NCBI GenBank assembly: GCA_009377645.1
Contig: WHTQ01000001.1
Coordinates: forward strand, 1-64,000
Direction: 5' to 3'
Length of the DNA: 64,000 nucleotides
Origin: Micromonosporaceae bacterium
Lineage (GTDB): Bacteria; Actinomycetota; Actinomycetes; Mycobacteriales; Micromonosporaceae
The notes below the pieces were generated by a model. That model was not told the origin of the DNA and made no database searches. It saw only the letters and a list, made by a program, of their open reading frames with translations. A program made the translations under genes and the position numbers. How positions within the stretch are numbered: the first letter of the stretch is position 1; every line of letters begins with the position of its first letter. Positions 28,319 through 56,478 of the stretch are shown in pieces.

Positions 28319-28379
28319 ACGTTAACGGCAGGTTTCGTAGACTGTCAACAGTTGACTGTCACCAGTTTCCTGATACTGT
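28319..28379. promoter_or_regulatory. Divergent promoters sharing a palindromic operator
   Basis: GTCAACAGTTGAC (28344-28356) has perfect 6-bp arms around one base. On the plus strand TTGACT (28352-28357), 16 bp and TACTGT (28374-28379) form the CoA-transferase promoter. On the minus strand TTGACA (28343-28348), 18 bp and TAACGT (28319-28324) form the transporter-operon promoter. Both -35 boxes overlap the palindrome, so one bound protein, probably the GntR at 17041, would control both. Confidence 0.68.
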
Positions 28380-34975: not shown

Positions 34976-34988
34976 CGCCTTACCTCCC

Positions 34989-35948
34989 CTAGGTCAACGG
35001 CAGGGTCTCGAACCTATGGCCCGACTCCAGCGCCGCGTGGTAGACCCAGTCGGCGATGGCGACGTCGGTGACGCTGAGGCCTTGCGACTCGAACAGCGTC
35101 GGGTGCTCGAGCACGACCGACCCGTCCAACACCTCACCGAGCTCCCCGACCGAGTTCCAGTTGAGCCGGCCCTTCTCGACGAGGTAGAGCAGGTCACCGC
35201 AGCAGGACTTGGCCTCGCCCAGATCGTCCACCACGATCGACTTCATCTGCCGGACGCACTCCTCGTCGAGCTCCCGTTCGTAGACGCGGTTCGCGCCCAT
35301 GCCGACAACCACCCGGGTGCCCTCGTCGAGCCACGCACCGTGGAGCACTGGCGTCGACGAGCTGGTCGCGGTGACGACGATGTCGGCTCCCGCGACGGCG
35401 TCGCGAGGCTCGTCCACGGCGACGGCCTTGACCCGGAAGGACTCCTCGACGTCCCGCGCGAACGCTTCTCTCCGGCCCGGGTCCCTGCCGTGGATCTGCA
35501 GTGAGGCCACGTCGTAGCCGATGCACATCGCCTCGATCTGACCGCGCGCCTGCCGACCCGTACCGAACACCGCGATGGTCACCGGACCCTGGTCTGCGGG
35601 CACTGCGATCTGGGCTCCCAGCAGGCTGACGGCCGAGGTCCGGCACAGGCTGACGTGGTGGGCCTCCAGCACGGCCAGCAGCTCGCCCGTGCTCGCCTTG
35701 TACAGGTGGATCCAGGCTCCCGACAGCGGCGAGCCCGAGTTTACCCAGACCTTGTAGCCCAGGCGGTCCGCGGTGTCCCAGCGCCCGGGCCCCCACTGCA
35801 TGAAGCCTGCCTCCGTGGGCATCCGGTAGCGCGGCCCGGTCTCGGCCTTGCCCCGAGCCAGGTCGATGAACACCGAACGCATGGGTTCGATGGCGTCGCG
35901 GACGGAAACGAGCTGCTTGGCAACCTCGTTGGGAATCAAGATAGCCAC
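34989..35948 (-). CDS. Ornithine cyclodeaminase/mu-crystallin family protein, copy 1
   Basis: 319 residues. Rossmann motif AVFGTGRQARGQ, substrate-side LGYKVWVNSGS (Lys of the family's reaction centre) and IVVTATSSSTPVLHGAWLDEG. A block RYRMP-GF-QWGP-RWD before the Lys is shared only with the paralogue at 54280 in this window. Family members reduce cyclic imines or oxidise amino acids with NAD(P). The operon has an oxygenase-type pathway, so a role on a nitrogen-containing intermediate is possible. ATG start; 13 bp before mmsA. Confidence 0.85.
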   Translation of the reverse strand: MAILIPNEVAKQLVSVRDAIEPMRSVFIDLARGKAETGPRYRMPTEAGFMQWGPGRWDTADRLGYKVWVNSGSPLSGAWIHLYKASTGELLAVLEAHHVSLCRTSAVSLLGAQIAVPADQGPVTIAVFGTGRQARGQIEAMCIGYDVASLQIHGRDPGRREAFARDVEESFRVKAVAVDEPRDAVAGADIVVTATSSSTPVLHGAWLDEGTRVVVGMGANRVYERELDEECVRQMKSIVVDDLGEAKSCCGDLLYLVEKGRLNWNSVGELGEVLDGSVVLEHPTLFESQGLSVTDVAIADWVYHAALESGHRFETLPLT

Positions 35949-35972
35949 TGTCAGTCTCCTCGATGGTCGGAC

Positions 35973-37010
35973 TCAGCTGGTCTTGTTCGCACCCGCGTAG
36001 ACGAGGTCGTCCATGTCGATCGCCTTGTCGAGGACCTGGTACTTGACCGAGAGCTCCGACTGCAGCTGGAACGACTCCATGTTGATCTGGGGGCTCCAGC
36101 CGCTACTTCGCACCTGCGCCAAGGCATCGGGGTCCACCTCGGAGTAGGTGGTCACGATTGCGCGAGCCTCGTCCTGGTGGTCGTTCGCGTACTCCAACGA
36201 CTTGGACCAGGCGCGGATAAAGCCGTCGATGAGGTCCTGGTTTTCGTCGAGGTAGTCGTCGGTGGTGAAGACGCCGGTGAGGGTCGCGCCCGGCATCATT
36301 TCGGAGAACGGGTTGGCCAGCAGCCGGTGCCCCGCGTTGACGTGCTCGGTAAGGTAAGGCTCGTTGGTCGCGGCCGCGTCGATCTGTCCCTGCGCCAGCG
36401 CCTGTCCCTGGTCTGGCCACGCGATCTCGACGAAGCGGACCGAGTTGACGTCGACCCCGGCGCGGGCGATCGCCTCGCGATTGACGACCTCGTTGATGGT
36501 GCCGAGGCCCTGCACGGCAACCGTCTTGCCGGCGAGGTCCGCGAGCGCCTGCACGGAGCTTCCGTTCGCTGCGACGATCCCGATCGGATCCTCGCTCGCG
36601 GTGGTGCCGGCTTGGGTGATCGGGGCGATGACCTTCACCGGCAGGCCCTGGTTGCGCGCGGCCATCAGGGAGGCAACGTTGCTCATTCCCATCGCGACCT
36701 CACCGGAGACGGCGGCCGGCACCATCGCGGCCCCGCTGGCGTAGTCACGCGGCTCGAGCTCGATGCCCTCCTCGGCGAAGAAGCCCTTCTCCATGCCCAG
36801 CCACAGAGGCGAGAACTCCGCGATCGGAACCGTGGCGATCGCGATGGTCTCCGTCGTGCCCGAACCGCCGGAGGCTGGCGCCTCTTCTTCGTCTCCGCAG
36901 GCCACCGCGCTACCGGCGACCAGGGCGAAGGCGGCAGCCTGCACCAGCGTCCGGCGGATCCGCCGTCCCTTATGTCTCGGAGTTCCCTTTCCAATCGCAC
37001 AGCTGTTCAT
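35973..37010 (-). CDS. ABC transporter substrate-binding lipoprotein, NitT/TauT type (module 1)
   Basis: 345 residues. Basic N-terminus, hydrophobic segment and lipobox SAVAC-GD, acidic linker, then PLWLGMEKGFFAEEGIELE, VPAAVSGEVAMGMSNVASL and ALADLAGKTVAVQGLGT, the NMT1/SsuA pattern. ATG 37010; the longer frame runs into the operator. Works with permeases 38064-39775 and ATPase 39772 on the other strand. Probably imports an aromatic acid or similar anion, given its neighbours. Confidence 0.9.
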   Translation of the reverse strand: MNSCAIGKGTPRHKGRRIRRTLVQAAAFALVAGSAVACGDEEEAPASGGSGTTETIAIATVPIAEFSPLWLGMEKGFFAEEGIELEPRDYASGAAMVPAAVSGEVAMGMSNVASLMAARNQGLPVKVIAPITQAGTTASEDPIGIVAANGSSVQALADLAGKTVAVQGLGTINEVVNREAIARAGVDVNSVRFVEIAWPDQGQALAQGQIDAAATNEPYLTEHVNAGHRLLANPFSEMMPGATLTGVFTTDDYLDENQDLIDGFIRAWSKSLEYANDHQDEARAIVTTYSEVDPDALAQVRSSGWSPQINMESFQLQSELSVKYQVLDKAIDMDDLVYAGANKTS

Positions 37011-37098: not shown

Positions 37099-37126
37099 AC
37101 TGTACTTACTGAACGATCGGTGTCAA
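37099..37126 (-). promoter_or_regulatory. Promoter with operator O1
   Basis: Minus strand TTGACA (37121-37126), 16-bp spacer, TACAGT (37099-37104). The spacer holds the operator; its plus-strand form is ACTTACTGAACGATCGGT (from 37104). It heads the binding protein-cyclodeaminase-mmsA unit. Confidence 0.72.
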
Positions 37127-37214
37127 GCCTGCGCGAAGGCGCGCCTCCCGGGGCGAGCCCGGGAGATCATCGGATGTCGGGGCGTTTGCGCAGGTCAGCG
37201 CCGTGCGGAGGGAG

Positions 37215-37832
37215 TCATTTCTGGGCTGGCGCGACCAGCCGCTGGATGACCCACCTGATGTAGGTCGAGCGGATCTCGCGGTCGGTCGCCGGCCCGCCCG
37301 GGTGGTACCACTCCGTGACCCAGTTGACCATGCCGAGGATCGCCAACCGCATCAGCCGCGGGTCGGAGGCGGTGAACTCGCCGGACGCGACACCGTCGAC
37401 GATGATCCGCTCGAACAACGCGTCGTACCGCTTGACGCGCACCTGGTACCGCTCCGCGTAATCGCCCACCAGGAAGCGCCGTTCCCGCAGAAACACGCGG
37501 ATGGCTTCGGGGCGATGAAAAATCAGGTCGAAGTGGTTGTTCAACGCCATTTCGAGTCGCTCGGCGGCTGGCCGCGGAACGTCGTAGATGCCTTCCAGCT
37601 TCTCGAGCTGGTCGGCCATGCCGTCCTCGAGAACGCGATAGAGCAGCTCCTGCTTGCTCGAGACGTAGTAGTAGAGTGCGGCGTTGGTGACCCCGGCTTT
37701 CGCGACGATCTGCGCGATGCCCGTACCGTTGTAGCCCTGCTTGTTGAACAGGTCCCGCGCGATCCTCATGATCTCCTGATAGGTCTCTCCCGAACGCTCA
37801 CGCTTGATTCTTCCCTGCTCCGAAGCCTTCAC
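37215..37832 (-). CDS. TetR family regulator, module 1
   Basis: About 205 residues. HTH: EIMRIARDLFNKQGYNGTGIAQIVAKAGVTNAALYYYVSSKQELL. The ligand domain has VFLRERRFL, ERYQVRVKRYDALF and RLAILGMVNWVTEWYHPGG, all shared with the TetR at 46359, so they are paralogues. Start at GTG 37832 is preferred, TTG 37844 is possible. It lies between the two divergent halves of module 1 and is flanked by operators O1, O4 and O3, so it is their likely repressor. Confidence 0.88.
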   Translation of the reverse strand: MKASEQGRIKRERSGETYQEIMRIARDLFNKQGYNGTGIAQIVAKAGVTNAALYYYVSSKQELLYRVLEDGMADQLEKLEGIYDVPRPAAERLEMALNNHFDLIFHRPEAIRVFLRERRFLVGDYAERYQVRVKRYDALFERIIVDGVASGEFTASDPRLMRLAILGMVNWVTEWYHPGGPATDREIRSTYIRWVIQRLVAPAQK

Positions 37833-37879
37833 GAGGGTCCCCAACCAGTCGACAATCCGATCGAGCTGCGCACCGCAAA

Positions 37880-37900
37880 CTCTACTGAACGCTTAGTGTC
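37880..37900 (-). promoter_or_regulatory. Operator O4 upstream of tetR (module 1)
   Basis: Plus-strand CTCTACTGAACGCTTAGTG (from 37880) matches O1/O3 except in the 3' arm. It lies about 50 bp upstream of the tetR start, consistent with autoregulation. No clear -35 is visible. Confidence 0.55.
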
Positions 37901-37965
37901 GGCGGCGACGCGGCGAGCCCACGGCCCCGTACGCAGCCGCTTCCCGGTCGTCAGCGCCCAGCTGG

Positions 37966-37993
37966 TTGACACCGACCGTTCAGTAAGTAGAGT
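37966..37993 (+). promoter_or_regulatory. Promoter with operator O3
   Basis: TTGACA (37966-37971), 16-bp spacer and TAGAGT (37988-37993). Operator 37968-37988 is nearly identical, in inverted orientation, to O1 (CCGTTCAGTAAGT core). Drives permease, permease, ATPase, intradiol dioxygenase and Rieske oxygenase. Confidence 0.75.
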
Positions 37994-38063
37994 AAAGGCG
38001 TCCCCGGAGGTGTCCGCACAGGGGTCCCTCCAGCACGGCCGAGCCCACGATGGAGCCGCTGAC

Positions 38064-39005
38064 ATGGACAAGCTCGAGGCGGGTGCGCCGCGGGAGGGGA
38101 GGCTCGGGCGCGAGCGCCGAAGCCTCGTCCTGTCGGCGGCGGCGTCCACGTCACCGGGCGACCTCCCAGTCGACGACCACGACCGGCCGGTCGAGCCCGT
38201 CACCGGGTACGGGCGCCTCGACGCGGCCCGGCCCTCGCTGCTGCGGCGGTGGCGGGACCCGCTCATCGTCGTCCTCGCGCTGGGGGTCCTCTGGGAGCTG
38301 GCGCTCGCGACGTCGCTGCTGTCCCAGGAGTACTTCCCGCGGGTCGGCGAGCTGGCCGGAGCGCTGGCGGACCTGCTGGGCTCGCAGACGTTCTGGACCT
38401 CGGTCCTCTACACGCTCGCCGGCTGGGGACTCGGGTTGCTGATCTCGGTACCGGTCGGGGTGTTCGCCGGCATCGCGATCGGATCCCACTGGCTGACGTA
38501 CCGCGCCTTCCGCCCGGTCGTCGAGTTCTTCCGTCCCATCCCGTCGATCGCCTACCTGCCGCTGGCCGTCGTGGCACTCGGCAGCGGGATGCGCCTCACG
38601 ATCTTTCTCGTCGCGCTCGCGACGTCCTGGCACATCCTGATCCAGACCATCTACGGCGTGCGAAGCGTCGAGGCCGTCACGATGGACACGGCGACGGTCT
38701 TCCGCTTCCCCTACCGGTACCGGCTTTTCACCGTCATCCTGCCCAGCGCGTTGCCGAGCATCATGACCGGCGTACGGCTGGCGTCGACCATCGCGATCGT
38801 CCTGACGATCACCGCGGGTCTGGTCGTCGGCTCGCCCGGCATTGGCAGCCTCGTCATTCGCGCCCAGCTGGCTGGACAGACGACTGGGATGTACGCGTTG
38901 ATCTTCGTCGCCGGTCTCCTCGGATGGGGCCTGGACATTCTCGTCAGACGGGTCCAGCACTCCGTGCTGGTGTGGCACCCGTCGACCAGGAAGGGCACGC
39001 CATGA
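38064..39005 (+). CDS. ABC transporter permease, NitT/TauT type (module 1, first)
   Basis: 313 residues, about six membrane helices. After a hydrophilic N-terminus of about 65 residues: LIVVLALGVLWELALA, the family motif SQEYFPRVGELAGALADLL, EFFRPIPSIAYLPLAVV, EAA-loop MDTATVFRFPYRYRLFTVILPSALPSIMTGVRLA. Start is ATG 38064 (GGAG 8 bp upstream); the reading frame extends far upstream by chance. Pairs with 39002-39775 and ATPase 39772. Confidence 0.9.
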   Translation: MDKLEAGAPREGRLGRERRSLVLSAAASTSPGDLPVDDHDRPVEPVTGYGRLDAARPSLLRRWRDPLIVVLALGVLWELALATSLLSQEYFPRVGELAGALADLLGSQTFWTSVLYTLAGWGLGLLISVPVGVFAGIAIGSHWLTYRAFRPVVEFFRPIPSIAYLPLAVVALGSGMRLTIFLVALATSWHILIQTIYGVRSVEAVTMDTATVFRFPYRYRLFTVILPSALPSIMTGVRLASTIAIVLTITAGLVVGSPGIGSLVIRAQLAGQTTGMYALIFVAGLLGWGLDILVRRVQHSVLVWHPSTRKGTP

Positions 39006-39775
39006 GACGCCGACAACGGTGGCTGGGCACGGTGGCGGAGATCGGCACGCCGGCGGCCCTGGTGGTGGTCGTTGCCATCTGGTCGACGGGCACCGCCAGC
39101 TTCTTCTTCCCGCCACTGCCCAGCATCCTGGAGAGCGTCTGGACGCTCTGGCTGGCCGGGCCCTACCGCGGCGACGTCGAGGCGAGCGCGCTCCGGGGGC
39201 TCGCGGGGTTCGGGGTCGCCACAGTTCTCGGGATCTCGCTGGGCATCGCGCTGGCGACCCTGCCGCGGATCGCGCGGGCCGTCCACCCGGTCCTCGAGTT
39301 CCTCCGGGCGATGCCTCCGCCGGTGCTCGTCCCGTTCGCGCTGACGCTGTTCGGAATCGCGAACAGCGGCAAGATCTTCATCATCGTGGCGACCGCGATC
39401 TGGCCGATCCTGCTGAACACGACCGACGGAGTCCGCAGCGTCGATCCGCTGGTGCTCGACACATCTCAGGTCTACCGGCTCAATGGTTGGCGTCGGATCT
39501 GGTCCGTTCTCCTGCCCGCAGCTTCGCCACAAATCCTCACCGGAATGCGCACCGCCACATCGATCACCATCATCGTGACGATCGTGAGCGAGCTGGTCGG
39601 CAGCTTCGACGGCATCGGCTACCAGCTACTACGGGCACAACGAACGTACGGAATGGTCGAGATGTGGAGCGGCGTCATCATCCTCGGGCTCGCTGGATAC
39701 CTGATTAGCGTGATTTTTATGGTTATCGATCATAAGATGCTCAGTTGGTTCCACGGCGCACGGGGGTCTCGATGA
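39002..39775 (+). CDS. ABC transporter permease, NitT/TauT type (module 1, second)
   Basis: 257 residues. TASFFFPPLPSILESVWTLW, EFLRAMPPPVLVPFALTLFG, and EAA-loop LDTSQVYRLNGWRRIWSVLLPAASPQILTGMRTA. ATG overlaps the first permease stop (ATGA) and its own stop overlaps the ATPase start (ATGA). Two different permeases instead of one homodimer give a heterodimeric channel, less usual in this transporter class. Confidence 0.9.
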   Translation: MRRRQRWLGTVAEIGTPAALVVVVAIWSTGTASFFFPPLPSILESVWTLWLAGPYRGDVEASALRGLAGFGVATVLGISLGIALATLPRIARAVHPVLEFLRAMPPPVLVPFALTLFGIANSGKIFIIVATAIWPILLNTTDGVRSVDPLVLDTSQVYRLNGWRRIWSVLLPAASPQILTGMRTATSITIIVTIVSELVGSFDGIGYQLLRAQRTYGMVEMWSGVIILGLAGYLISVIFMVIDHKMLSWFHGARGSR

Positions 39776-40626
39776 CGAACCTGTTCAATCACGCAAGCGC
39801 CACCGCCGAGCCGGTCGAGGCGGCCCACGCCGGGGCCGGCCCACCGGCCCCCTCGGCACGGACCTTCCTCGAGGTGTCGAAGCTCAAGAAGGTCTACGGC
39901 ACCGAGACGAAGACGCCGGTCGAGGCGCTGCACGAGATCTCGCTGGACGTTCGCGAGCGGGAGTTCGTCTGCGTGGTGGGCCCGTCCGGTTGCGGCAAGA
40001 CCACGCTGCTGCGCTGCATCGCCGGCCTGCTGCCGCCGACCAGTGGGCAGATCGCCCTCCAGGGTCACCCGATCGACATGACGCCGGAGGGGATGGCCGT
40101 CGTCTTCCAGGACTACAGCCGCTCGCTGTTCCCCTGGATGTCGGTCTCGCGCAACGTCACCCTGCCGCTGAGCGCCAACGGGGTGGCGCGGCGCGAGCGC
40201 CGCATGCTCGCCGCGCAGGCGCTGGAGGCGGTGGGACTGACCGGCGCCGCGGACCGCTACCCCTGGCAGCTCTCCGGGGGGATGCAGCAGCGCGTGGCGA
40301 TCGCCCGAGCGCTCGCCTTCCAGCCCAAGATCCTTCTGATGGATGAGCCGTTCGCCTCGGTCGACGCGCAGACCCGCGCCGACCTCGAGGATGTCGTCCT
40401 GCGGGTGCACGGCGAGTTCTCGACGACGGTGCTCTTCGTGACCCACGACGTCGACGAAGCGGTCTACCTGAGCGACCGGGTCATCGTCTTGAGCTCGGCG
40501 CCGACCCGGATCCGCGAGGTCGTTCCGGTCGAGCTGGCCCGGCCGCGAGACCAGGCGGAGACCCGCGAACTGAGGGAGTTTGTCGAGCTGCGGACGCGTG
40601 TATATCGAGGAGTGCGGGGACGATGA
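39772..40626 (+). CDS. ABC transporter ATP-binding protein, NitT/TauT type (module 1)
   Basis: 284 residues. Walker A GPSGCGKTT, Q-loop VVFQDYSRSLFPWM (normal Gln), signature LSGGMQQR, Walker B ILLMDEPFASVDAQ, H-loop THDVDEA. ATG 39772 overlaps the permease stop. The dioxygenase gene begins inside its stop codon (ATGA), linking uptake with catabolism. Confidence 0.93.
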   Translation: MTNLFNHASATAEPVEAAHAGAGPPAPSARTFLEVSKLKKVYGTETKTPVEALHEISLDVREREFVCVVGPSGCGKTTLLRCIAGLLPPTSGQIALQGHPIDMTPEGMAVVFQDYSRSLFPWMSVSRNVTLPLSANGVARRERRMLAAQALEAVGLTGAADRYPWQLSGGMQQRVAIARALAFQPKILLMDEPFASVDAQTRADLEDVVLRVHGEFSTTVLFVTHDVDEAVYLSDRVIVLSSAPTRIREVVPVELARPRDQAETRELREFVELRTRVYRGVRGR

Positions 40627-41540
40627 AGAAGGTCTGGAACTTCGAGAACCTGTCAGAGGACGAGCCGGTCACGCCGGCGGACCCGGACGCCGAGCCGGAG
40701 CTCGACGAGAGCCTGCGAAACCCCAAGGTGGGCCTCGCGATCGACGCGGTGCGGGGCGCGCTCACAGACCTCGTACGCAACCACGGCGTCACCAAGGACG
40801 ACGTGACCGTCGCGGTCGGCGCGTTGGTCGACATGTCGGTCGAGGACCCGGTGTTCACCAGGCACCACCTCGTCTCGATCCTGGCGCAGGCATGGGATCC
40901 AGCGGGCGGCTGGGACGTCGCGACCCAGGGGACGCCGGCCGACTCGGAGGGCCCGGTCTACTACCCGGACGCACCGTTGGTCGACAACCCTGGCGTACTC
41001 CCGATGCGCGAGGACGAGGCGGGCGTGCCGTTGATCGTCAGCGGGCAGGTGCGCTCACTGGCCGGGGAACCGCTGGCCGGCGCCGAGCTCGATGTCTGGC
41101 TCGCGACGGCGAGCGGCCACTACTCCAACACCGGGGTCCGCGGACTGCCGGACTTCGTGCTGCGCGGGCGGTTACTCACCGACGACAAAGGGCGGTACGA
41201 GTACCGCGCGATAAAGCCGGTGCCGTACGACTTCCCGGTGCGCCCGAAGACGGCCGACTACATGCTGCTGGCGCAGGGCTTCTCGCGCTACCGCCCACGT
41301 CATATCCACGTCAAGGTCCGCCACCCGGACCTGTCCGGCGAGTTCACGACGCAGCTCTACTTCCGCGGCGACCCGTACCTGCGGTACTACCCGGCGACGC
41401 CGGCGCAGCGCAGCCTCGCCTCGCTCCTGCAGCTCGACGTCGAGCTGCACGACGACCCCCGGGAGATCACCGACCGGGGACTGTCGCGGCCGTTCGAAAC
41501 TTCCCAGTTCGACCTGGTCCTCAAGACGAAGAGACGGTGA
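40623..41540 (+). CDS. Intradiol ring-cleavage dioxygenase (hydroxyquinol/catechol 1,2-type)
   Basis: 305 residues. Non-heme Fe3+ enzyme opening a vicinal diol ring between the hydroxyls. The N-terminal about 110 residues are the helical dioxygenase-N domain; the catalytic beta-barrel carries the four ligands: Tyr167 (SGHYSN), Tyr202 (KPVPYDFP), His227 and His229 (RPRHIHVK). The GPVYYPDAP start of the catalytic domain is typical. Together with the maleylacetate-reductase-like gene 55265, a hydroxyquinol route is more likely than a beta-ketoadipate one. No cycloisomerase is seen nearby. Confidence 0.92.
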   Translation: MKKVWNFENLSEDEPVTPADPDAEPELDESLRNPKVGLAIDAVRGALTDLVRNHGVTKDDVTVAVGALVDMSVEDPVFTRHHLVSILAQAWDPAGGWDVATQGTPADSEGPVYYPDAPLVDNPGVLPMREDEAGVPLIVSGQVRSLAGEPLAGAELDVWLATASGHYSNTGVRGLPDFVLRGRLLTDDKGRYEYRAIKPVPYDFPVRPKTADYMLLAQGFSRYRPRHIHVKVRHPDLSGEFTTQLYFRGDPYLRYYPATPAQRSLASLLQLDVELHDDPREITDRGLSRPFETSQFDLVLKTKRR

Positions 41541-41543
41541 CGG

Positions 41544-42851
41544 ATGCTACGTACCGAGGAGAACCAACGACTGACGTCGGTCGGGCCCGGAACGCCGATC
41601 GGCGATCTCATGCGCCGCTACTGGTTGCCGGCCTGCCTCAGCAAGGAGCTGGCTGCCGGCGGGGCGGTCAAGCCGGTGGAGCTGTTGGGAGAGCGGTTGG
41701 TCGCCTTCCGGTCGCCCGCCGGTGAGGTCGGGATCATCGACGAGGCCTGCCCGCACCGCGGCACCTCGCTCCTACTGGCGCGCAACGAGAAGTGCGGCCT
41801 GCGCTGCATCTACCACGGCTGGCAGGTGGACCGCACCGGCCGGGTCGTCGACGTGCCCACCAGCCGCAACCCCGAGCGGATCGCGCAGATCGTGCGCCAC
41901 GGCGCCTATCCCGTGGTCGAGCGCGGCGGTCTCGTTTGGACCTGCCTGTCACCCGATGGCGGGATGCCGGAGCCGCCGATGTTCAAATGGCTCACGCTCC
42001 CGACCGACCACCTCGAGGTCGTCAAGGCCAGGGTCGACGCCAGCTGGGCGCAGGGGATCGAGAGCCTGATCGACTCCGCGCACGCGACCTACCTGCACGC
42101 CGACAGCGTACGGGCGACGAGCGGGGTCAAGACGGGTGAGTGGACGGAGAGGGGCCTGGACCGCAACTCGGCCGACGGCCAGCCGGTGCTGGAGGTGGAG
42201 GACCGGCCGTACGGGTTCCGCTACGCGGCTGTCCGACGCCCGATGACCGACGCGGACCGGCTGCGGCACGTACGCACCACGCTGTTCATCGCCCCGGTGT
42301 TCGCCTGTGTGGCGGCGCCGGCCGGGCGCGGGATGTTCCAGTGCTTCGTGCCGGTCGACGACCGGCGTGCTACGGCCTACTTCGTCTACTTCACGACCGA
42401 CGGACCGATGAGCGACGAGCACCGCACCTGGTTCCAGCGCAGCTGGTGGGGCGTCGAGCCCGGCGTCGACATCGACCAGGAGACGTTCCGCAAGGCCCGC
42501 CGCCCCGACAACCAGTGGCTCCAGGACCGCGCGGCGATGCAGCGCGAGGAGACGTACTCGGGGATCAGCGGCGTCTTTAACGAGGACCAGAGTGTCGTGG
42601 AGGGGATGGGCCCGATCGTCGACCGCTCTATCGAGCACCTCGGGCCGACCGATCTGGCGGTCGTCCGGTTTCGCCGGGTGATGCTGGCCAACGCGCGCGA
42701 CGTCGCCGCGGGCGGGCCGCCGCTGGGATGGGACGGCATTCCCCACGAGCGGCTGGATGCCGCCGAGGGCCTGGTGCCCCATGGCGAGCGGTGGCAGGAC
42801 CTGTTGCCCGACGGCCTCGATGTGGAGCCGGCAACGTCGGGCAGCCGATGA
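41544..42851 (+). CDS. Rieske non-heme iron oxygenase alpha subunit, copy 1
   Basis: 435 residues. Rieske centre CPHRG (C69, H71) and CIYHGW (C88, H91); mononuclear iron site DSAHATYLH (D177, H180, H185). The C-terminal domain lacks any beta-subunit partner, as in the phthalate 4,5-dioxygenase/vanillate demethylase group. Hydroxylates or demethylates an aromatic ring. Electrons must come from a reductase not present in this window. Only 3 bp after the dioxygenase. Closely paralogous to 43216-44529. Confidence 0.92.
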   Translation: MLRTEENQRLTSVGPGTPIGDLMRRYWLPACLSKELAAGGAVKPVELLGERLVAFRSPAGEVGIIDEACPHRGTSLLLARNEKCGLRCIYHGWQVDRTGRVVDVPTSRNPERIAQIVRHGAYPVVERGGLVWTCLSPDGGMPEPPMFKWLTLPTDHLEVVKARVDASWAQGIESLIDSAHATYLHADSVRATSGVKTGEWTERGLDRNSADGQPVLEVEDRPYGFRYAAVRRPMTDADRLRHVRTTLFIAPVFACVAAPAGRGMFQCFVPVDDRRATAYFVYFTTDGPMSDEHRTWFQRSWWGVEPGVDIDQETFRKARRPDNQWLQDRAAMQREETYSGISGVFNEDQSVVEGMGPIVDRSIEHLGPTDLAVVRFRRVMLANARDVAAGGPPLGWDGIPHERLDAAEGLVPHGERWQDLLPDGLDVEPATSGSR

Positions 42852-42865
42852 CCGGAGTCAGCCCG

Positions 42866-42918
42866 TTGATCGGCCGGGCTGGCGATGGTAGCTTCTTACT
42901 GACTGACCGATCGGTTAG
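42866..42918 (+). promoter_or_regulatory. Promoter with operator O2 (between the two Rieske genes)
   Basis: TTGATC (42866-42871), 17-bp spacer, TAGCTT (42889-42894), then operator ACTGACTGACCGATCGGT (from 42898 to 42918), whose ACCGATCGGT centre is a perfect palindrome. The operator covers the likely start of transcription. It separates module 1 from module 2. Confidence 0.65.
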
Positions 42919-42931
42919 GAGCAGTGAACCG

Positions 42932-43210
42932 GTGGCGGAGCTCAGCTTCTACGAGTTCATCGACGAGGCCTGCGTCCTCGTGCTCGCGGCCGAGCAGCAG
43001 GGACAGGAGCCCGTCGAGCTGGGCGTCCCGACGAAGATCTACGAGGCGATCCGCAGCGCCAAGCTGGCCGAGCTGCGTCGCGGCGGCACGCTGTCGCTGC
43101 TGGGACTTCGCGTCGTGGACGCCGAGCGGGCGACCGGGCCGGCAACCGTCGCCGGCTCGGCGTCTCCTGAGCTCGTTTTCGAGCGCCGAACGGACCACGA
43201 GGGTGGGTGA
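42932..43210 (+). CDS. Small protein of unknown function, first gene of Rieske-2 unit
   Basis: 92 residues if it starts at GTG 42932, 10 bp after an AGGAG site and behind promoter O2. An ATG at 42848 in the same frame overlaps the Rieske-1 stop, but it would translate the promoter and operator region. The sequence is acidic and helix-rich at first (FYEFIDEACVLVLAAEQQG), then VPTKIYEAIRSAKLAELRRGG, LGLRVVD and an apparently disordered tail. No Cys cluster for a ferredoxin. Unrecognised; the gene overlaps the Rieske-2 start region, so it might be an accessory subunit or chaperone of the oxygenase. Confidence 0.6.
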   Translation: MAELSFYEFIDEACVLVLAAEQQGQEPVELGVPTKIYEAIRSAKLAELRRGGTLSLLGLRVVDAERATGPATVAGSASPELVFERRTDHEGG

Positions 43211-43215
43211 ACGAC

Positions 43216-44529
43216 ATGTTGAAAGCCGACGAGAACCGGCGTCTGACCCAGGTCGGACCGGGGACGCCGATGGGCCAGGTCTTCCGGCACTACTGGTTGC
43301 CGGCGTGTCTAAGCAGTGAGCTCGAGGCCGGCGGAGGTCCGAGGCTGGTCGAGCTCCTCGGCGAGCGGATGGTGGCATTCCGCTCGCCGAGCGGTGAGGT
43401 GGGCATCGTCGCCGAGCCGTGCCCGCACCGCGGAGCGTCGCTGCTGCTGGCGCGCAACGAGGAGTGCGGCCTGCGCTGCATCTACCACGGATGGAAGGTA
43501 GACGGTGCGGGCAAGCTGGTCGACGCGCCGACCAACCGCAACCCCGAGCGGATCGCCCAGGTCGTCCGTCACGCGGCATACCCCGCCGTCGAGCGGGGCG
43601 GCGTCGTGTGGACGCATCTCGGTCCGCCCGAACAGCGTGGCCCGTTCCGCGCGTTCAAGTGGGCCGTCCAACCGGCATCGCACGTCCAGCTCATCAAGGT
43701 CGCCATGGATGCGAACTGGGCGCAGGCGATGGAGAGCCTCGTCGACTCCGCCCACGTGAGCTACCTGCACGCCGACCTCGTCCGGTCCGGTGCCGGCGCG
43801 GAAACCGCCGAGTGGACCGGCACGGGGCAGGTGCGCAACACCGCCGACGGCGCGCCGCACCTGGAGATCGAGGACACCGCCTATGGCTTCCGGTACGGCG
43901 CCATCCGCCGCCCGCTCACCGGGGCGGACACCCACCGCTACGTCCGGACGACGGTCGTCGTCGCGCCGAACTTCGTGTGCATCGCGTCCCCCGAAGGACG
44001 GGGTCACTTCGAGGCGTACATCCCGATCGACGACCACCGGTCGATGTTCTACTCAGTGCACTACACCACGCACAGGCCCTTCGACGAGCAGGACCGCCGC
44101 GGCATCCTCGAGTGGTACGGCGGCCGACCGGGGCTGGACGTGGATGAGAACTTCCGGAAGGTCCGCAACCCGGACAACGGGTGGCTCCAGGACCGCGAAC
44201 GGATGCGGCTCGGCGAGACGTACACCGGCCTGTTCGGGATCCTCAACCAGGACCACGCCGCGGTCGAGAGCATGGGACCGATTGTGGACCGCGCCAAGGA
44301 GCATCTCGGGCCGACCGACGTGGCGGTCATCCGCTTCCGCCGCATGATGCTGCGGGCGGCCAGGGACGTGGAGAGCGGGGGCGTACCGATCGGGGCCGAC
44401 CAGGACCTTCCGTACGAGAGCCTGGACGCCGCCGAGGGGCTCGTCCGCCTCGACGCCCCGTGGCAGGAGGTCATCAGCGACGGCCTGGCGGGGGCGGCCG
44501 CGGGTCCGTCCGCGACGGCGTACGGCTGA
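43216..44529 (+). CDS. Rieske non-heme iron oxygenase alpha subunit, copy 2
   Basis: 437 residues. Rieske residues C69, H71, C88 and H91 fall at exactly the same numbers as in copy 1 if the ATG at 43216 is the start, which supports this start over the GTG at 43207. Mononuclear iron site SLVDSAHVSYLH. High similarity to copy 1 throughout, with changes in the C-terminal substrate domain. Also without reductase partner. Has its own promoter (O2), so it can be expressed apart from copy 1. Confidence 0.93.
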   Translation: MLKADENRRLTQVGPGTPMGQVFRHYWLPACLSSELEAGGGPRLVELLGERMVAFRSPSGEVGIVAEPCPHRGASLLLARNEECGLRCIYHGWKVDGAGKLVDAPTNRNPERIAQVVRHAAYPAVERGGVVWTHLGPPEQRGPFRAFKWAVQPASHVQLIKVAMDANWAQAMESLVDSAHVSYLHADLVRSGAGAETAEWTGTGQVRNTADGAPHLEIEDTAYGFRYGAIRRPLTGADTHRYVRTTVVVAPNFVCIASPEGRGHFEAYIPIDDHRSMFYSVHYTTHRPFDEQDRRGILEWYGGRPGLDVDENFRKVRNPDNGWLQDRERMRLGETYTGLFGILNQDHAAVESMGPIVDRAKEHLGPTDVAVIRFRRMMLRAARDVESGGVPIGADQDLPYESLDAAEGLVRLDAPWQEVISDGLAGAAAGPSATAYG

Positions 44530-44538
44530 GGCGCGTCC

Positions 44539-45459
44539 ATGCAGGAGCGGCAGACGGTCGGGTTCGTCGGGGCCGGCACCATGGGAGGCGCGATGGCCCT
44601 GCGGCTGCTCGACGCGGGCTACCGCGTACGGGTCCACGACCGGGTCCCCGCGCGGGCGAACCAGGCGGTCGCACACGGGGCGGTGGCGGTGCCCGACCCG
44701 GGCGCGGTCGCGTCGGACGTCGTCATCATGATGCTGCCCGACTCGCGGGTCACCCGGCGCGTGCTTTTCGAGGCTGGGCTCGCCGACGCCATGGCCGGCG
44801 GGAGCACCATCGTCGACATGAGCTCCGGCGACCCCGGCCTGGTCCGCGAGCATGCGAACTGGCTCGCCACGCGCGGCGTCGGCCAGCTCGACGCGCCGGT
44901 CTCCCAGGGTCAAGCGGAGGCCCGCGCGGGTACGTTGCGGATCATGGTCGGTGGCGACGAGAAGGAGTTCGACCGCCGCCGGTCGGTCCTGTCGTGCCTC
45001 GGTGACCCTTACTACCTCGGTCCGTCCGGCAGCGGTCAGGTAGCGAAGCTCGTCAACCAGCTGATCCTGGCGGTGACCGTCGGCGCGGTGGCGGAGGGCC
45101 TGCTGTTCGGTGCGGCGGCCGGCGTCGAGGCGCGGCAGCTCGTCGCCGCCCTGCAGGGCGGGTACGCCGACGGTCCAGTCCTGCGCGATCACGGGCGGCG
45201 CATGTCGCAGCGCGACTTCGAACGGGTCGGCGGGCCGAGCCACCTCTTCCTCAAGGATCTCGAGGGCGTGCGGTCCGAGCTGAACCGGCTCGGGCTGCGG
45301 CTCGGGCTCGTCGAGACCGTGCTGCCGATGTTCACCGCACTGGCGGAAGGGCGGGGCGGCCTGCTGGACCACCAAGCGTCTCTGGTGCGGCAGGTCGAAC
45401 GGATGAATCCCGGATTCCAGGTGGGGAGCACGAGCCATGACGAGGTCGCGACGTCGTGA
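44539..45459 (+). CDS. Beta-hydroxyacid dehydrogenase (3-hydroxyisobutyrate dehydrogenase-like)
   Basis: 306 residues. N-terminal Rossmann GFVGAGTMGGAMA, IIMMLPDS, DAPVSQGQAEARAGTL (usual DAPVSGG with Gln instead of Gly), and the catalytic Lys in GSGQVAKLVNQ. Family enzymes oxidise beta-hydroxy acids with NAD(P)+. ATG 44539. The gene end overlaps the cyclase by 23 bp. Could deliver a semialdehyde to MmsA of module 1. Confidence 0.88.
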   Translation: MQERQTVGFVGAGTMGGAMALRLLDAGYRVRVHDRVPARANQAVAHGAVAVPDPGAVASDVVIMMLPDSRVTRRVLFEAGLADAMAGGSTIVDMSSGDPGLVREHANWLATRGVGQLDAPVSQGQAEARAGTLRIMVGGDEKEFDRRRSVLSCLGDPYYLGPSGSGQVAKLVNQLILAVTVGAVAEGLLFGAAAGVEARQLVAALQGGYADGPVLRDHGRRMSQRDFERVGGPSHLFLKDLEGVRSELNRLGLRLGLVETVLPMFTALAEGRGGLLDHQASLVRQVERMNPGFQVGSTSHDEVATS

Positions 45460-46351
45460 CCGCTTCGCCCCCCAGCGCCGCGTCACCAACTGGGGCCGGT
45501 GGGGCGATGACGACGAGGCGGGTGCGCTCAACCTCGTCACCGCGGCCGAGACCCGTCGCGCGGCGGGTCTTGTCACGCACGGGCGGGTGGTCATGCTGGG
45601 GCAGGCGCTCGGGCCCGACACCGTCGTGCCCCGCCACCGCAAGCGCGTCGAGCGGTTCATGGTGCGCGACGGCGGCGACTACGCGTCCGGGGCACGGCAT
45701 CAGGGCGGCTTCCAGTTCGCCGAGGACGTTGTCTCGTACGCGTCGCACAGCGGCACCCACATCGACGCCCTGTCCCACGCCTGGTACGGCGACGCGCTCT
45801 ACAACGGCCACCCGTCCACGACCGTACGCAGTACGACGGGCGCCCAGCGCTGCGGTGCCGAACGGCTCCGCCCGATCGTCACCCGCGGGGTTCTGCTCGA
45901 CGTAGCGGCGGTCGCCGGCGCCCCGCTCGACGTCGGCGATGTGGTCACGCGTGAGCACCTCGTCGCGGCCGCGGACCGTGCGGGCGTCGCACTCGAGCCC
46001 GGTGACGCCGCGCTCATCCGTACCGGATGGTTCGGCGTCGCGGGCGACGACCCGGACCGCTACCTCGCCGGCGAACCGGGACTCGACCTGTCCGCGGCGC
46101 GCTGGCTCGCGGCGGCCGATGTGGCGGTGGTCGGCGCCGACAACTACGCGATCGAGGCTATGCCCTTCACCGGAGAGGACTGGTTCCCGGTGCACCGGCT
46201 GCTGATCCGGGACCTTGGGGTGCCGCTCGTCGAGGGCATGGTCCTGGACGAGCTCGCCGGTCTCGCCGAAGGGGCCTTCCTGTTCGTCGCCTCCGCGGTC
46301 TCCGTCGTCGGCAGCACCGCGGGACAGGTCTGTCCGATCGCCGTGCTGTAG
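45437..46351 (+). CDS. Cyclase family protein (kynurenine formamidase/isatin hydrolase-like)
   Basis: 304 residues. Metal site SHSGTHIDALSH, residues 103-114, the H-x-GTH-x-D-x3-H motif of this family. VTNWGRWGDDDEAGALNLVT at the N-terminus and SAVSVVGSTAGQVCPIAVL at the end match the longer subgroup of metal-dependent hydrolases. Possibly hydrolyses a lactone, lactam or formamide arising in the pathway. It converges on the TetR gene with only 7 bp between. Confidence 0.88.
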   Translation: MTRSRRRDRFAPQRRVTNWGRWGDDDEAGALNLVTAAETRRAAGLVTHGRVVMLGQALGPDTVVPRHRKRVERFMVRDGGDYASGARHQGGFQFAEDVVSYASHSGTHIDALSHAWYGDALYNGHPSTTVRSTTGAQRCGAERLRPIVTRGVLLDVAAVAGAPLDVGDVVTREHLVAAADRAGVALEPGDAALIRTGWFGVAGDDPDRYLAGEPGLDLSAARWLAAADVAVVGADNYAIEAMPFTGEDWFPVHRLLIRDLGVPLVEGMVLDELAGLAEGAFLFVASAVSVVGSTAGQVCPIAVL

Positions 46352-46358
46352 CCGCGTG

Positions 46359-47042
46359 CTATCCCAGCAGCCGCTGCATGATGAGGTTGCTCATGGTTAG
46401 CTTGATCTCGAACGGCGTCAGCCGGCCACCTGGCTCGTACCACTCGACCAGCCAGTTGATCATGCCGAGGATCGCCAGCCGGGTGACGTGCGGGTCGACG
46501 GGAGGCAGCTCGCCGTCGCGCACGCCGGCCACGATGAACTCGGTGAAGAGCTCGTCGTAGCGGTCGACTTGGGTCTGGTAGCGCTCGCGGTAGGGCGACT
46601 CGAGGAAGCGCCGCTCGCGGAGGAAGACCGTGACGGCCTCCTGGTTGCCCAGCACGAAGTCAAGATGGTTCTCGACGGCGATCCGCACCTTCTCGCGGTT
46701 GCTGATCGGCTGTCTCGCCAGGGCCTCCAGGCGTTGCAGGAAGTCGGACATCCCCGTGGACAGCACGCGCATAAGGAGATCCTGCTTGCCGGTGACGTAG
46801 TAGTAGAGGCTGGCGGTCGTGAGGCCAAGCTGGCCGGCGACCTCGCTCACCGAGGTGCCGTTATAGCCGTTGCGCGCGAACAGGCTCGTGGCGGCGATGA
46901 CGAGCGCCCGCTCGGTCGCGTGAGCCGTCCGGCGTGGCTCCGTCACCTTGCTGGCCGCGACCTTGGTGGCCGTCACCTTGCTGGCCGTCACCTTGCTGGC
47001 CGCGACCTTGGTGGCGTTTGCCCGCACCCGCTTGGCGCTCAT
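46359..47042 (-). CDS. TetR family regulator with a Lys-rich repeat N-terminus, module 2
   Basis: 227 residues, ATG 47042 with GGAGGG upstream. The DNA-binding domain (IAATSLFARNGYNGTSVSEVAGQLGLTTASLYYYVTGKQDLL) is preceded by about 40 residues made of TKVAASKVTASKV-type repeats, a basic tail coded by five 15-bp units at 46941-47015. Ligand domain shares VFLRERRFL, ERYQTQVDRYDELF and RLAILGMINWLVEWYEPGG with the TetR at 37215. Operators O6 and O5 lie upstream. The basic tail could add non-specific DNA binding. Confidence 0.88.
   Translation of the reverse strand: MSAKRVRANATKVAASKVTASKVTATKVAASKVTEPRRTAHATERALVIAATSLFARNGYNGTSVSEVAGQLGLTTASLYYYVTGKQDLLMRVLSTGMSDFLQRLEALARQPISNREKVRIAVENHLDFVLGNQEAVTVFLRERRFLESPYRERYQTQVDRYDELFTEFIVAGVRDGELPPVDPHVTRLAILGMINWLVEWYEPGGRLTPFEIKLTMSNLIMQRLLG
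46941..47015. repeat. Five tandem 15-bp repeats inside tetR
   Basis: Two unit types, CGTCACCTTGCTGGC and CGCGACCTTGGTGGC, in the order A-B-A-A-B, without spacers and in frame with the gene (5 codons each). Copy-number change would lengthen or shorten the basic tail without frameshift. Confidence 0.9.
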
Positions 47043-47083
47043 GGTCCCTCCAACTGAAGCCGTCGTCGGCACCCTCATGCAGG

Positions 47084-47104
47084 TCTTACCAAGTGCTCGT
47101 TAGA
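47084..47104 (-). promoter_or_regulatory. Operator O6 upstream of tetR (module 2)
   Basis: Plus-strand TCTTACCAAGTGCTCGTTA is a degenerate match to the O1-O5 motif, 42 bp upstream of the tetR start. Weakest of the six sites. Confidence 0.42.
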
Positions 47105-47190
47105 TGAGGACGGTAGCCAGGATGAGGGCAGATCACCCAAGCGTAGAGGACTCTCAGCCGTGTGTCCCGTCGCGAGTTGGCAGACGGCTG

Positions 47191-47219
47191 TTGACAACAT
47201 ATCGAGCGTTTAGTAAGTT
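47191..47219 (+). promoter_or_regulatory. Promoter with operator O5
   Basis: TTGACA (47191-47196), 17-bp spacer, TAAGTT (47214-47219), with the operator at 47198-47218 (reverse complement ACTTACTAAACGCTCGATA) filling the spacer. Heads the long rightward unit from the transporter to the Zn-ADH. Confidence 0.75.
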
Positions 47220-47302: not shown

Positions 47303-48478
47303 GTGGGAAGTGTTGCGACTGCCAACCAACCGGGTGTCGCGGCCCCGGGCCCGGGCACCGGCTCGGACCAGGCGGTACTGAGCCTGCGGTCGGTGGGCAG
47401 GTTCTTCGACCAGGGCGATCACTGGGCCGTACGCGGCCTGAGCCTGGACATCGCACCTGGCGAGTTCTTCGGCCTGCTCGGTCCGTCGGGCTGCGGCAAG
47501 ACCACCACGCTCAACATGATCGCGGGGTTCCTCGACCCGACCGAGGGAAGCATCCACGTCACCGGGCGCGACCTGCGGTCGGTGCCGCCGCACCGCCGCA
47601 ACGTGGCGATGGTGTTCCAGGACTACGCGCTGTTTCCGCACCTGTCCGCGAGGGACAATGTCGCGTTCGGCATGAAGGTGCGCAAGAAGCCGCGGCCGGT
47701 CATCGACCGGCGCACTACCGAGCTGCTCGACTTCGTCGACTTGGCCGCCGCGGCCGACCGCCTTCCGAGCCAGCTGTCCGGTGGGCAGCAGCAGCGGGTC
47801 GCCATCGCGCGGGCGCTGGCGGTCGACCCCGGCATCGTCCTGCTCGACGAGCCGCTCAGCAACCTTGACTCCCGGCTGCGCGCCGACGTGCGGCTCGAGC
47901 TCAAGAGACTGTTCCGCAGCGCGGGCGTCACCGTTATCCTCGTGACGCACGACCAGAGCGAGGCGTTCTCGCTCTGCGACCGCGTCGCGGTCATGTTCCG
48001 CGGCACAGCGGCGGCGGTGGGCCGTCCGGACGACATCTACCGGCTGCCGCCGACGGTCGAGGTGGCCGAGTTCGTCGGCGAGGCCAACCTGTTTCCGGCT
48101 CGGGTCGTCACCGGAGGCTCCACGGTGCTCAGAGCGGCCGTCACGGTGGGCGCGGACGTCGTCGAGCGCGAGGTAGTGGCGGCCGCCTCCGTCACCTCCG
48201 CCGGCCAGGAGGGCCACGTGCTCGTGCGCCCGGAGGTCGCGCGGGTGACCGCCGAGTCCGCGGGTGCGACAGCAGGACTGCGCGGCACCATCCGGGACGT
48301 GAGCTTCCTCGGTGAGTTCGCCAGCTACCAGATCGACCTGGGTGGCCGGAGCGTGGGGTCGAAGGTGGTCTACGAGGGCCAGCTGCTGAAGCCTGGGGCA
48401 CCGGTCACCTTCGACTGGGCGCCGAAGGACGCGGTCTTCATCCCGTCCGAGACCCCGGCGCCGGGCGGGACGCCATGA
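47303..48478 (+). CDS. ABC transporter ATP-binding protein (PotA/FbpC type, module 2)
   Basis: 391 residues. Walker A GPSGCGKTT, Q-loop MVFQDYALFPHL, signature LSGGQQQR, Walker B VLLDEPLSNLDSR, H-loop THDQSEA, C-terminal TOBE domain with HVLVRPE and DVSFLGEFASYQIDL. GTG start with GAGGAG 6 bp upstream. Followed by two permeases and a binding protein, all overlapping or close. Confidence 0.93.
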   Translation: MGSVATANQPGVAAPGPGTGSDQAVLSLRSVGRFFDQGDHWAVRGLSLDIAPGEFFGLLGPSGCGKTTTLNMIAGFLDPTEGSIHVTGRDLRSVPPHRRNVAMVFQDYALFPHLSARDNVAFGMKVRKKPRPVIDRRTTELLDFVDLAAAADRLPSQLSGGQQQRVAIARALAVDPGIVLLDEPLSNLDSRLRADVRLELKRLFRSAGVTVILVTHDQSEAFSLCDRVAVMFRGTAAAVGRPDDIYRLPPTVEVAEFVGEANLFPARVVTGGSTVLRAAVTVGADVVEREVVAAASVTSAGQEGHVLVRPEVARVTAESAGATAGLRGTIRDVSFLGEFASYQIDLGGRSVGSKVVYEGQLLKPGAPVTFDWAPKDAVFIPSETPAPGGTP

Positions 48479-49422
48479 CGCTCACCCGGTGGCAGCGAAC
48501 CGCGGTGCTCGCGGCACCACTGGTGGTCTACGTCCTTTTCTTCGTCATCCCGCTGATCTCGCTGGGCCGCATGAGCCTCAACGAGTTCACGCGACTGACC
48601 GGCCTGCAGGATGCGGTCACCCTGGACAGCTTCCGCACCGCGCTGACCGACGACTTCTACCTGCGTACGTTCCTGACGACGCTGAAGCTGGCGTTGATCG
48701 CCTCCGTGCTCTGCACCGCGCTCGGCTGCATCGTTGGTTATCTCATGTGGAGGATCGGCGGTAACGTCCGCCGGGTCATGTTGGGCGTCATCCTGGCCCC
48801 GCTGCTCGTGGCGTCGGTCGTCCGCGCGTTCGGGTGGATCGGCACGATCGGTCCCGGAGGCCTGCTTCCGCACGTGTCGGAGCGGATCGGCCTGGGCACC
48901 CTCACCATTTACGCCAACGAGCCGGCGGTCATCATCGGCTTCGTACACATCCTGCTGCCGTTCGCGGTCATCCTGTTCATCACGAGCCTCGACAACATCA
49001 GTCCTTCGGTGATGAAGGCCGCGGAGGGGCTCGGCGCCACCGAGTGGCGCCGCATCCGGGCGGTCGTGCTACCCCTGACATACCCGGGTGTCCTGTCCTC
49101 GCTGCTTTTCACGTTCGCGCTCGCCAGCGCCGCCTACTCGATCCCCGCGATCCTCGGCGGTCGCCGCGTGCTGACCGCCTCCCTCGCCATCTACGAGCAG
49201 CAGACCAGGCTGTTCAACTGGCCCCTCGCCGCCGCGTTGTCGCTCATCCTGATCGTCGTCGTGGCGTTCGCGATGTCCACCTACCAGGCGTTGACCCGCC
49301 GCGGCCGGACCAGCAGGCGGCGCGCGTGGCGACGCCGTGACCGGCCCCGCGACTCAGCACCCGACGAAGGGGGTGTGCCTGGGTATGACAGCCGTCCAGC
49401 CCTCGGCGACCAGGGCGGGTGA
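48475..49422 (+). CDS. ABC transporter permease (PotB-like, module 2)
   Basis: 315 residues, about six helices: VLAAPLVVYVLFFVIPLISLG, VLCTALGCIVGYLMW, EAA-loop KAAEGLGATEWRRIRAVVLPLTYPGVLSS. An arginine-rich tail of about 45 residues after the last helix is hydrophilic and unlike the family. ATG overlaps the ATPase stop (ATGA); its end overlaps the second permease. Confidence 0.9.
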   Translation: MTLTRWQRTAVLAAPLVVYVLFFVIPLISLGRMSLNEFTRLTGLQDAVTLDSFRTALTDDFYLRTFLTTLKLALIASVLCTALGCIVGYLMWRIGGNVRRVMLGVILAPLLVASVVRAFGWIGTIGPGGLLPHVSERIGLGTLTIYANEPAVIIGFVHILLPFAVILFITSLDNISPSVMKAAEGLGATEWRRIRAVVLPLTYPGVLSSLLFTFALASAAYSIPAILGGRRVLTASLAIYEQQTRLFNWPLAAALSLILIVVVAFAMSTYQALTRRGRTSRRRAWRRRDRPRDSAPDEGGVPGYDSRPALGDQGG

Positions 49423-50302: not shown

Positions 50303-50342
50303 TCGGCCGCGGGCCGGGAGCACATATCTCAGGAGTAGCGCC

Positions 50343-51434: not shown

Positions 51435-51447
51435 ATAGGAGTCGTGC

Positions 51448-52443: not shown

Positions 52444-52450
52444 CGCGTCA

Positions 52451-53836: not shown

Positions 53837-53855
53837 GATGCCTCGGAGGGTTCCT

Positions 53856-54248: not shown

Positions 54249-54279
54249 CACCAGGCGTCGACCGCTCCGGAGGCGAGGC

Positions 54280-56443: not shown

Positions 56444-56478
56444 CCCCCCGTCCATCGCCCACAGAGTAAGGAGAACCC

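Follow-up and report, generated by a model that had tools for sequence, protein, structure and literature searches.

Two regulator genes of the TetR type, TetR1 and TetR2, are found in the window, the whole 64,000-nucleotide stretch of Micromonosporaceae DNA analysed here, which lies within contig C85 of a 4.97-Mb assembly. With them are six related palindromic sites, O1 to O6, spread over two catabolic modules (Table 1). The reading we favour, with a probability of about 0.7, is that the two proteins are autoregulating repressors that share an ancestral operator type and control the genes next to them, with some binding across the modules likely. As far as sequence can tell, both the regulatory design and the operator belong to types already known.

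Six sites of one operator family

All six sites were set in one 20-bp register, with the axis between bases 10 and 11, and each lies at most one base from where the original prediction had put it. About the common axis the left and right half-sites are CTTACTGAAC and GATCGGTGTC for O1, TCTACTGAAC and GCTTAGTGTC for O2, CTTACTGAAC and GGTCGGTGTC for O3, CTGACTGACC and GATCGGTTAG for O4, CTTACCAAGT and GCTCGTTAGA for O5, and CTTACTAAAC and GCTCGATATG for O6. The 18-mer ACTTACTGAACGATCGGT, allowing up to three mismatches, has four matches in the window against 0.02 expected: O1 with none, O3 with one, O4 with two and O6 with three. Its exact 17-base relative, the core CTTACYRAACGNTCGRT, occurs at only three places in the genome, which are O1, O3 and O6; with up to two mismatches there are eight places, against two for the control, and O4 is among the five that have two mismatches. 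A shorter core of 14 bases, ACYGANCGNTCRGT, derived from O1 to O4, is found exactly at O1, O3, O4 and one other place in the genome, C58:1013. We took this last match as chance; by eye it appears inside a coding stretch, although long minus-strand open reading frames (ORFs) also cover it.

Leave-one-out matrices were run over 127,962 strand positions, with the five training sites also competing. O1 ranked 2, O3 ranked 3, O6 ranked 4, O2 and O4 each ranked 9 and O5 ranked 20; the matrices used in this work are built from 2 to 5 sites. O1, O3, O4 and O6 are strong sites, O2 is fair and O5 is weak. O6, which belongs to module 2, is identical to O1 and to O3 at 15 of 20 bases and to O5 at 14 of 20. 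The counts, the exact core at O1, O3 and O6, and the leave-one-out ranks bear out, within the window, the claim that one operator family spans both modules.

The window has six promoter boxes of the form TTGACA-N15-18-TAnnnT where 0.05 would be expected, and three of the six are at O1, O3 and O6. There the operator covers the spacer between the -35 and -10 boxes, so that a bound dimer would block the promoter. The original prediction had placed O1, O3 and its fifth-listed site between such boxes; this is correct for O1 and O3, but the fifth site, at 47084, has no TTGACA box. The label is evidently a slip, and the site at 47198 (O6) was meant. At O4 and O5 weak boxes can be made out by eye (for O4, TTGATC-N17-TAGCTT at 42866-42894), which would put the operator right after the -10 position.

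Two regulators, probably from an old split

Both proteins match TetR_N (PF00440; 46.8 bits for TetR1 and 39.2 for TetR2, against a gathering score of 24) and TetR_C_24 (PF17932; 104.4 and 106.6 bits, against 26.4), and with 46.8% identity they are related regulators, as had been predicted. Their scores against the Bacillus FadR model NF053878, 61.7 and 56.4 bits, fall below its curated cut-off of 200, as does the 26.8 bits of TetR1 against the KstR model NF033703 (cut-off 280), for which TetR2 has no listed match. Three C-terminal motifs common to the pair, VFLRERRFL, ERYQ..V.RYD.LF and RLAILGM.NW..EWY.PGG, had been called distinctive. The motifs are real, but they fall within TetR_C_24 and recur fully or partly in both other aligned proteins, and therefore are not private to TetR1 and TetR2.

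The original prediction also called the two regulators duplicated; if a recent duplication at this locus is meant, the tree and the identities speak against it. TetR2 is closer to proteins of other genera than to TetR1: it is 63.2% identical to a protein of Modestobacter sp. DSM 44400 (locus L024), which belongs to the window's order and another family, and 54.9% identical to one from the genome G111. TetR1 is 48.7% and 41.5% identical to the same two proteins, and a third paralogue, C6, stands at 36.8-41.1% identity. In a tree of 45 rows, TetR2 groups with the Modestobacter and G111 proteins at 98/92, with TetR1 outside; TetR1 is next to join (92/86, under the starred level), followed by C6 (100/99 for all five). 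Tree and identities together imply that the split between TetR1 and TetR2 is older than the split between TetR2 and the Modestobacter protein, or that the genes were acquired separately.

When both TetR proteins were used to search for relatives, the Modestobacter protein was near (48%) and the others stood at 25-34%, among the best 80 of 88 relatives. Profile searches, in which the seven best candidates were scored per genome, matched 18 of 397 genomes of the order at E <= 1e-35, our own included; most of the matches were distant, and close members were found in two other genomes. A sample of the class yielded 13 of 394 genomes, none nearer than the relatives from the order, and a sample of the phylum yielded 2 of 396 at E <= 1e-45, our own included, with one further distant member. 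TetR1 alone, at 1e-30, matched 1 of 61 relatives, namely its own genome. Plasmid searches returned no close TetR (three records at 30-37% for TetR1, one at 30% for TetR2).

The N-terminal tail of TetR2 (46938-47018) contains repeated KVTASKVTATKVAASKVT-like units, and by eye the DNA there shows a short imperfect repeat. The tail is absent from TetR1 and from the relatives we read.

Related sites in other genomes

Related sites lie beside the relatives of TetR2 in two other genomes. Scanning the Modestobacter locus with the window's 17-base pattern at up to three mismatches gave two matches (L024 9857 and 11482), one upstream of the TetR gene, CTTACTGTACGATCATTAG, and the other preceding a periplasmic-binding-protein gene, CTTACTGCACGCTCGTTAAG. 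In the 20.6-kb stretch 0.34 would be expected, and 8 of 100 shuffles reach two. These sites are weak by count; their placement makes them credible. A matrix built from the two ranks the window's sites O6 1, O1 2, O3 4, O4 5, O5 6 and O2 19, a ranking that is partly circular, because the two were picked by their likeness to O1, O3 and O6.

In G111 (L142, near 9927), CTACTGGTCGTTCAGTAG was seen on reading the DNA that separates the TetR gene from a divergent flavin-oxidoreductase-type gene. Its 14-base core agrees with O1 at 12 of 14 bases, a score reached at 2 of 63,987 places, and with O2, O3 and O4 at 11 of 14 each (9 places). The G111 site is thus nearer to the sites of TetR1 than to those of TetR2 itself, which favours a shared rather than a module-bound specificity. 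The TetR2-like genes of both genomes resemble TetR2 in carrying TetR_C_24 and in their related upstream sites and differ from it in their neighbours, a periplasmic-binding-protein gene in L024 and flavin-oxidoreductase-type and AMP-binding-enzyme genes in L142. Judged from these sequences, outside support for a common operator family is thin and partly circular.

A known type of operator

Allowing up to two mismatches, the 14-base core is present near related TetR genes at 14 of the 24 loci that were scored, where shuffled upstream DNA would give about 1.3. This comparison overstates independence, since the control shuffles single bases, not dinucleotides, and several loci are close relatives. 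Leaving out TetR1, TetR2, Modestobacter and G111, it is present at 10 of 20 loci. The survey was given 39 loci, with orientation considered, and 15 were dropped when the script found no helix.

Published regulators, drawn on here from excerpts of the papers cited, use operators of this type. PaaR (BCAL0210) is a TetR-type repressor of phenylacetate genes in Burkholderia cenocepacia (PMC2770484, PMC9493321). Its inverted repeat ACCGACCGGTCGGT lies between putative -10 and -35 boxes and is required for negative control of paaA (PMC2770484); PaaR operators are given again in PMC9493321. The repeat conforms to the core ACYGANCGNTCRGT; 12 of its 14 bases agree with O3 and with O4, and 11 with O1. 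O1 and O3 are like it in fitting ACYGANCGNTCRGT exactly and in lying within the -35/-10 spacer, and O6 fits ACYGANCGNTCRGT with two mismatches. As here, several separate catabolic clusters come under one operator type. The PaaR system has one regulator and ours has two; the comparison covers the operator sites. Pfam scans of the neighbouring proteins showed no phenylacetate enzyme, with no search for paa genes made elsewhere in the genome.

In Thermus thermophilus, TTHB023 (PfmR) has the consensus CTGACCGATCGGTCAG, with a dissociation constant of about 2 nM by biolayer interferometry and 65 nM by gel shift (PMC7022988). The consensus agrees with O4 at 15 of 16 bases (42903-42918), which is its best place in the window, although its dyad axis is offset by two bases from the axis used here. 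TTHB023 sites overlap core promoters, their targets being fatty-acid and phenylacetate genes. A second TetR repressor, SbtR (TTHA0167), binds the same sites at 1-2 nM, and the authors suggest that multiple effectors are needed (PMC7022988). There the binding of two repressors to the same sites, at nanomolar affinity, was measured, whereas here cross-binding is suggested by the likeness of the operators. FadR of the same species (PMC5597230) is also a TetR-type protein with a catabolic regulon and short palindromic sites, but its consensus, TTRNACYNRGTNYAA, is a different palindrome, and that of mycobacterial BkaR is another again (PMC3920632). Among the open-licence PMC papers listed for paired TetR regulators, we found no closer case.

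Specificity and alternative readings

On the favoured reading, TetR1 and TetR2 belong to the TetR_C_24 group, either as old paralogues or as relatives acquired separately, and both have kept the ancestral operator type, with a 14-bp core made of the half-sites ACYGANC and GNTCRGT, and relaxed versions of it. Each would probably bind DNA as a dimer and repress the gene that encodes it, TetR1 through O2 and TetR2 through O5, and the neighbouring operons would be repressed by TetR1 at O1, O3 and O4 and by TetR2 at O6. A small ligand on the C-terminal domain, probably a transported substrate or an intermediate, would bring release. The six sites form a single continuum, which makes some binding between the modules likely; TetR1 at O6 and TetR2 at O1 and O3 would be the easiest cases. 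For the pair as a whole, cross-binding appears plausible. The ligand domains of TetR1 and TetR2 are 48% identical and the DNA-binding parts 45%. Of 28 pairs compared, 24 have a ligand domain that is less conserved than the DNA-binding part; TetR1 with TetR2 is one of the four exceptions, and since the remaining three all include C6, the support that this lends to related ligands is weak.

Several observations weigh against this reading, in addition to the few sites behind each matrix and the limits on the Modestobacter sites given above. The recognition stretches of TetR1 and TetR2 differ at 5 of 13 residues, and the sites carry a mild module-specific signal. Their right half-sites end in CGGT at O1, O3 and O4, in TAGT at O2, and in CGTT, CGAT, CATT and CGTT at O5, O6 and the Modestobacter sites; a grouping of the sites by module ranks 2 of 15, which becomes 2 of 70 when the Modestobacter sites are added and 7 of 126 when the G111 site is included as well. 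A matrix of the module-1 sites ranks O5 43rd. O2, O5 and O6 each agree with the PaaR operator at just 9 of 14 bases, a score reached at 655 of 63,987 places, and a stricter promoter scan that accepts O1 and O3 finds no promoter at O4, O5 or O6. The G111 core, beside a TetR2-type protein, agrees with O6 at 9 of 14 (322 places) and with O5 at 6 of 14, which argues against O5 and O6 being typical of TetR2's group. No orthologue of TetR1 was found outside its own genome in the relatives, profile and plasmid searches. A shared operator is also a weaker sign of a special link, because the type is common near related TetR genes and is published for PaaR and TTHB023.

Some of these points fit an insulated pair, in which neither TetR reads the sites of the other module and the operators look alike through a shared ancestry that has no effect on regulation. 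We give this a substantial chance, somewhat short of even. The differing recognition residues and right half-sites, the module grouping and the good fit of the PaaR operator to O3 and O4 but not to O5 and O6 all speak for it, and with other TetR genes also having the operator type, likeness alone proves little. However, the G111 protein is TetR2-like in its recognition residues (11 of 13 in common with TetR2 and 12 of 13 with the Modestobacter protein) although its site, with ACTG/CAGT ends, is like those of module 1; the half-site difference therefore does not track the protein. O6 is also nearer to O1 and O3 than to O5, and the module-1 matrix ranks it 5th of 127,962.

C6 has 3 of 13 recognition residues in common with TetR1 and as many with TetR2. 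Beside its gene, on genome contig C6, an 18-bp palindrome, ACCAACCAGTTGGTTGGT, stands twice (L003 270-287 and 2178-2195), ahead of the CoA-transferase-family gene and the NMT1-type binding-protein gene that flank it. The palindrome differs from the core, and operators therefore change within the subfamily. Yet L116, with 4 of 13 recognition residues in common with each of TetR1 and TetR2, keeps the core with one mismatch, so C6 is not a clean control.

A tentative alternative, which we rate a little lower than the separation of the two modules, is that both repressors sit on the same promoters, so that full induction of one or both modules would need both ligands, or the ligand of one module would prime the other. 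The operator continuum, the 48% identity of the ligand domains and the published co-binding of TTHB023 and SbtR, for which the authors propose multiple effectors (PMC7022988), are consistent with it; against it, O2 and O5 are poor matches, and the enzymes do not show one proven pathway. A stricter form, improbable in our view, would have both TetRs on O1, O3, O4 and O6, perhaps as mixed dimers, with the aromatic-type and the second module opening only with both ligands or with one common ligand. That the six resemble one another by chance, or serve a different regulator, is very improbable: a third TetR could read an operator type so common among related TetR genes, but four matches were found where 0.02 were expected, the exact core CTTACYRAACGNTCGRT is confined in the genome to these sites, they precede divergent or internal transcription units, and the third subfamily member has a different palindrome.

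As it stands, the locus extends a documented operator type, that of PaaR and TTHB023, to an actinobacterial cluster with Rieske and intradiol dioxygenases. The genome holds three members of the subfamily, of which two have the operator type described here and the third a different one. If the two repressors do bind across the modules, they would make a small, naturally occurring test case for the way in which related repressors retain or give up their operator specificity, and the two catabolic modules would have to be studied as one regulon.

Genes of the two modules and possible substrates of module 1

TetR1 is flanked by a leftward unit, running from the binding protein to the aldehyde dehydrogenase, and by the rightward ABC/dioxygenase/Rieske operon. 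The 3' end of TetR2 abuts this operon, and its 5' side faces the rightward module 2.

Table 1. Operators, promoters, regulators and modules in the window
Feature	Position	Strand	Description
O1	37105..37124	+	Operator CTTACTGAACGATCGGTGTC; in leftward promoter of NMT1-type binding-protein gene
O2	37881..37900	+	Weaker operator upstream of TetR1; autoregulation probable
O3	37968..37987	-	Operator in rightward promoter of ABC/dioxygenase operon
O4	42899..42918	+	Operator between two Rieske oxygenase genes
O5	47085..47104	+	Weakest operator, upstream of TetR2; no TTGACA box; autoregulation probable
O6	47198..47217	-	Operator over promoter spacer ahead of second ABC operon
O1 promoter	37099-37126	-	TTGACA-N16-TACAGT
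O3 promoter	37966-37993	+	TTGACA-N16-TAGAGT
O6 promoter	47191-47219	+	TTGACA-N17-TAAGTT
TetR1	37215..37844	-	TetR_N + TetR_C_24 regulator; start codon uncertain
TetR2	46359..47042	-	TetR_N + TetR_C_24 regulator; ORF open to 47078; by eye, GGAGGG before ATG 47042
Module 1, left arm	33494..37010	-	Aldehyde dehydrogenase, ornithine cyclodeaminase/mu-crystallin family protein, NMT1-type binding protein
Module 1, right arm (whole span given; transporter and oxygenase part)	38064..46351	+	Two ABC permeases, ATPase, intradiol dioxygenase, Rieske oxygenase 1
Module 1, right arm (rest)	within 38064..46351	+	92-aa ORF, Rieske oxygenase 2, NAD-binding beta-hydroxyacid-dehydrogenase-type protein, cyclase family protein
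Module 2 (whole span given; first part)	47303..58943	+	ABC ATPase with TOBE_2 domain, two ABC permeases, binding protein, DHDPS-family protein, MmgE/PrpD
Module 2 (rest)	within 47303..58943	+	136-aa ORF, ornithine cyclodeaminase family protein, Fe-type alcohol dehydrogenase, MmgE/PrpD 2, Zn-type alcohol dehydrogenase

The substrates of module 1 may be aromatic acids, to which its enzymes point. The intradiol dioxygenase is nearest to catechol 1,2-dioxygenases, with hydroxyquinol dioxygenases scoring lower, and the nearest chains to Rieske oxygenase 2 are named Rieske (2Fe-2S) domain protein and then putative phthalate 4,5-dioxygenase. The aldehyde dehydrogenase of the left arm matches the MMSDH model above its cut-off. 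For the Fe-type alcohol dehydrogenase of module 2, the two best PDB matches are named alcohol dehydrogenases and cover partial length, followed by lactaldehyde reductases over most of the length; matches to entries named maleylacetate reductase are weaker and partial. All NCBIfam matches of this enzyme and of the intradiol dioxygenase are below cut-off. We considered a joint hydroxyquinol-type pathway, combining the dioxygenase of module 1 with a maleylacetate-reductase-like alcohol dehydrogenase in module 2, and the matches of the two enzymes leave it unsupported.

Capped searches with the intradiol dioxygenase and the Rieske proteins revealed no syntenic module 1 in relatives. The dioxygenase matched 2 of 368 genomes of the order at E <= 1e-40, our own included, and Rieske oxygenase 2, at E <= 1e-60 in five hand-picked genomes, had one 38% match outside its own genome. 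Rieske relatives on plasmids (86 records) are all below 60% identity, the 12 listed being at 39.6-41.3%.

The tandem Rieske oxygenases (41544-42851 and 43207-44529) are 60% identical to each other, and the 92-aa ORF and O4 lie between their genes, as if the second oxygenase had its own switch. Each module has one ornithine cyclodeaminase/mu-crystallin family paralogue (34989-35948 and 54280-55272), the two being 48% identical. The short ORFs at 42933-43210 in module 1 and 53838-54248 in module 2 have no Pfam matches at 0.001. The three TTGACA-N15-18-TAnnnT boxes outside the operator family are at 2223-2251 (-), 15889-15918 (+) and 28319-28348 (-), the last directly upstream of a binding-protein gene.

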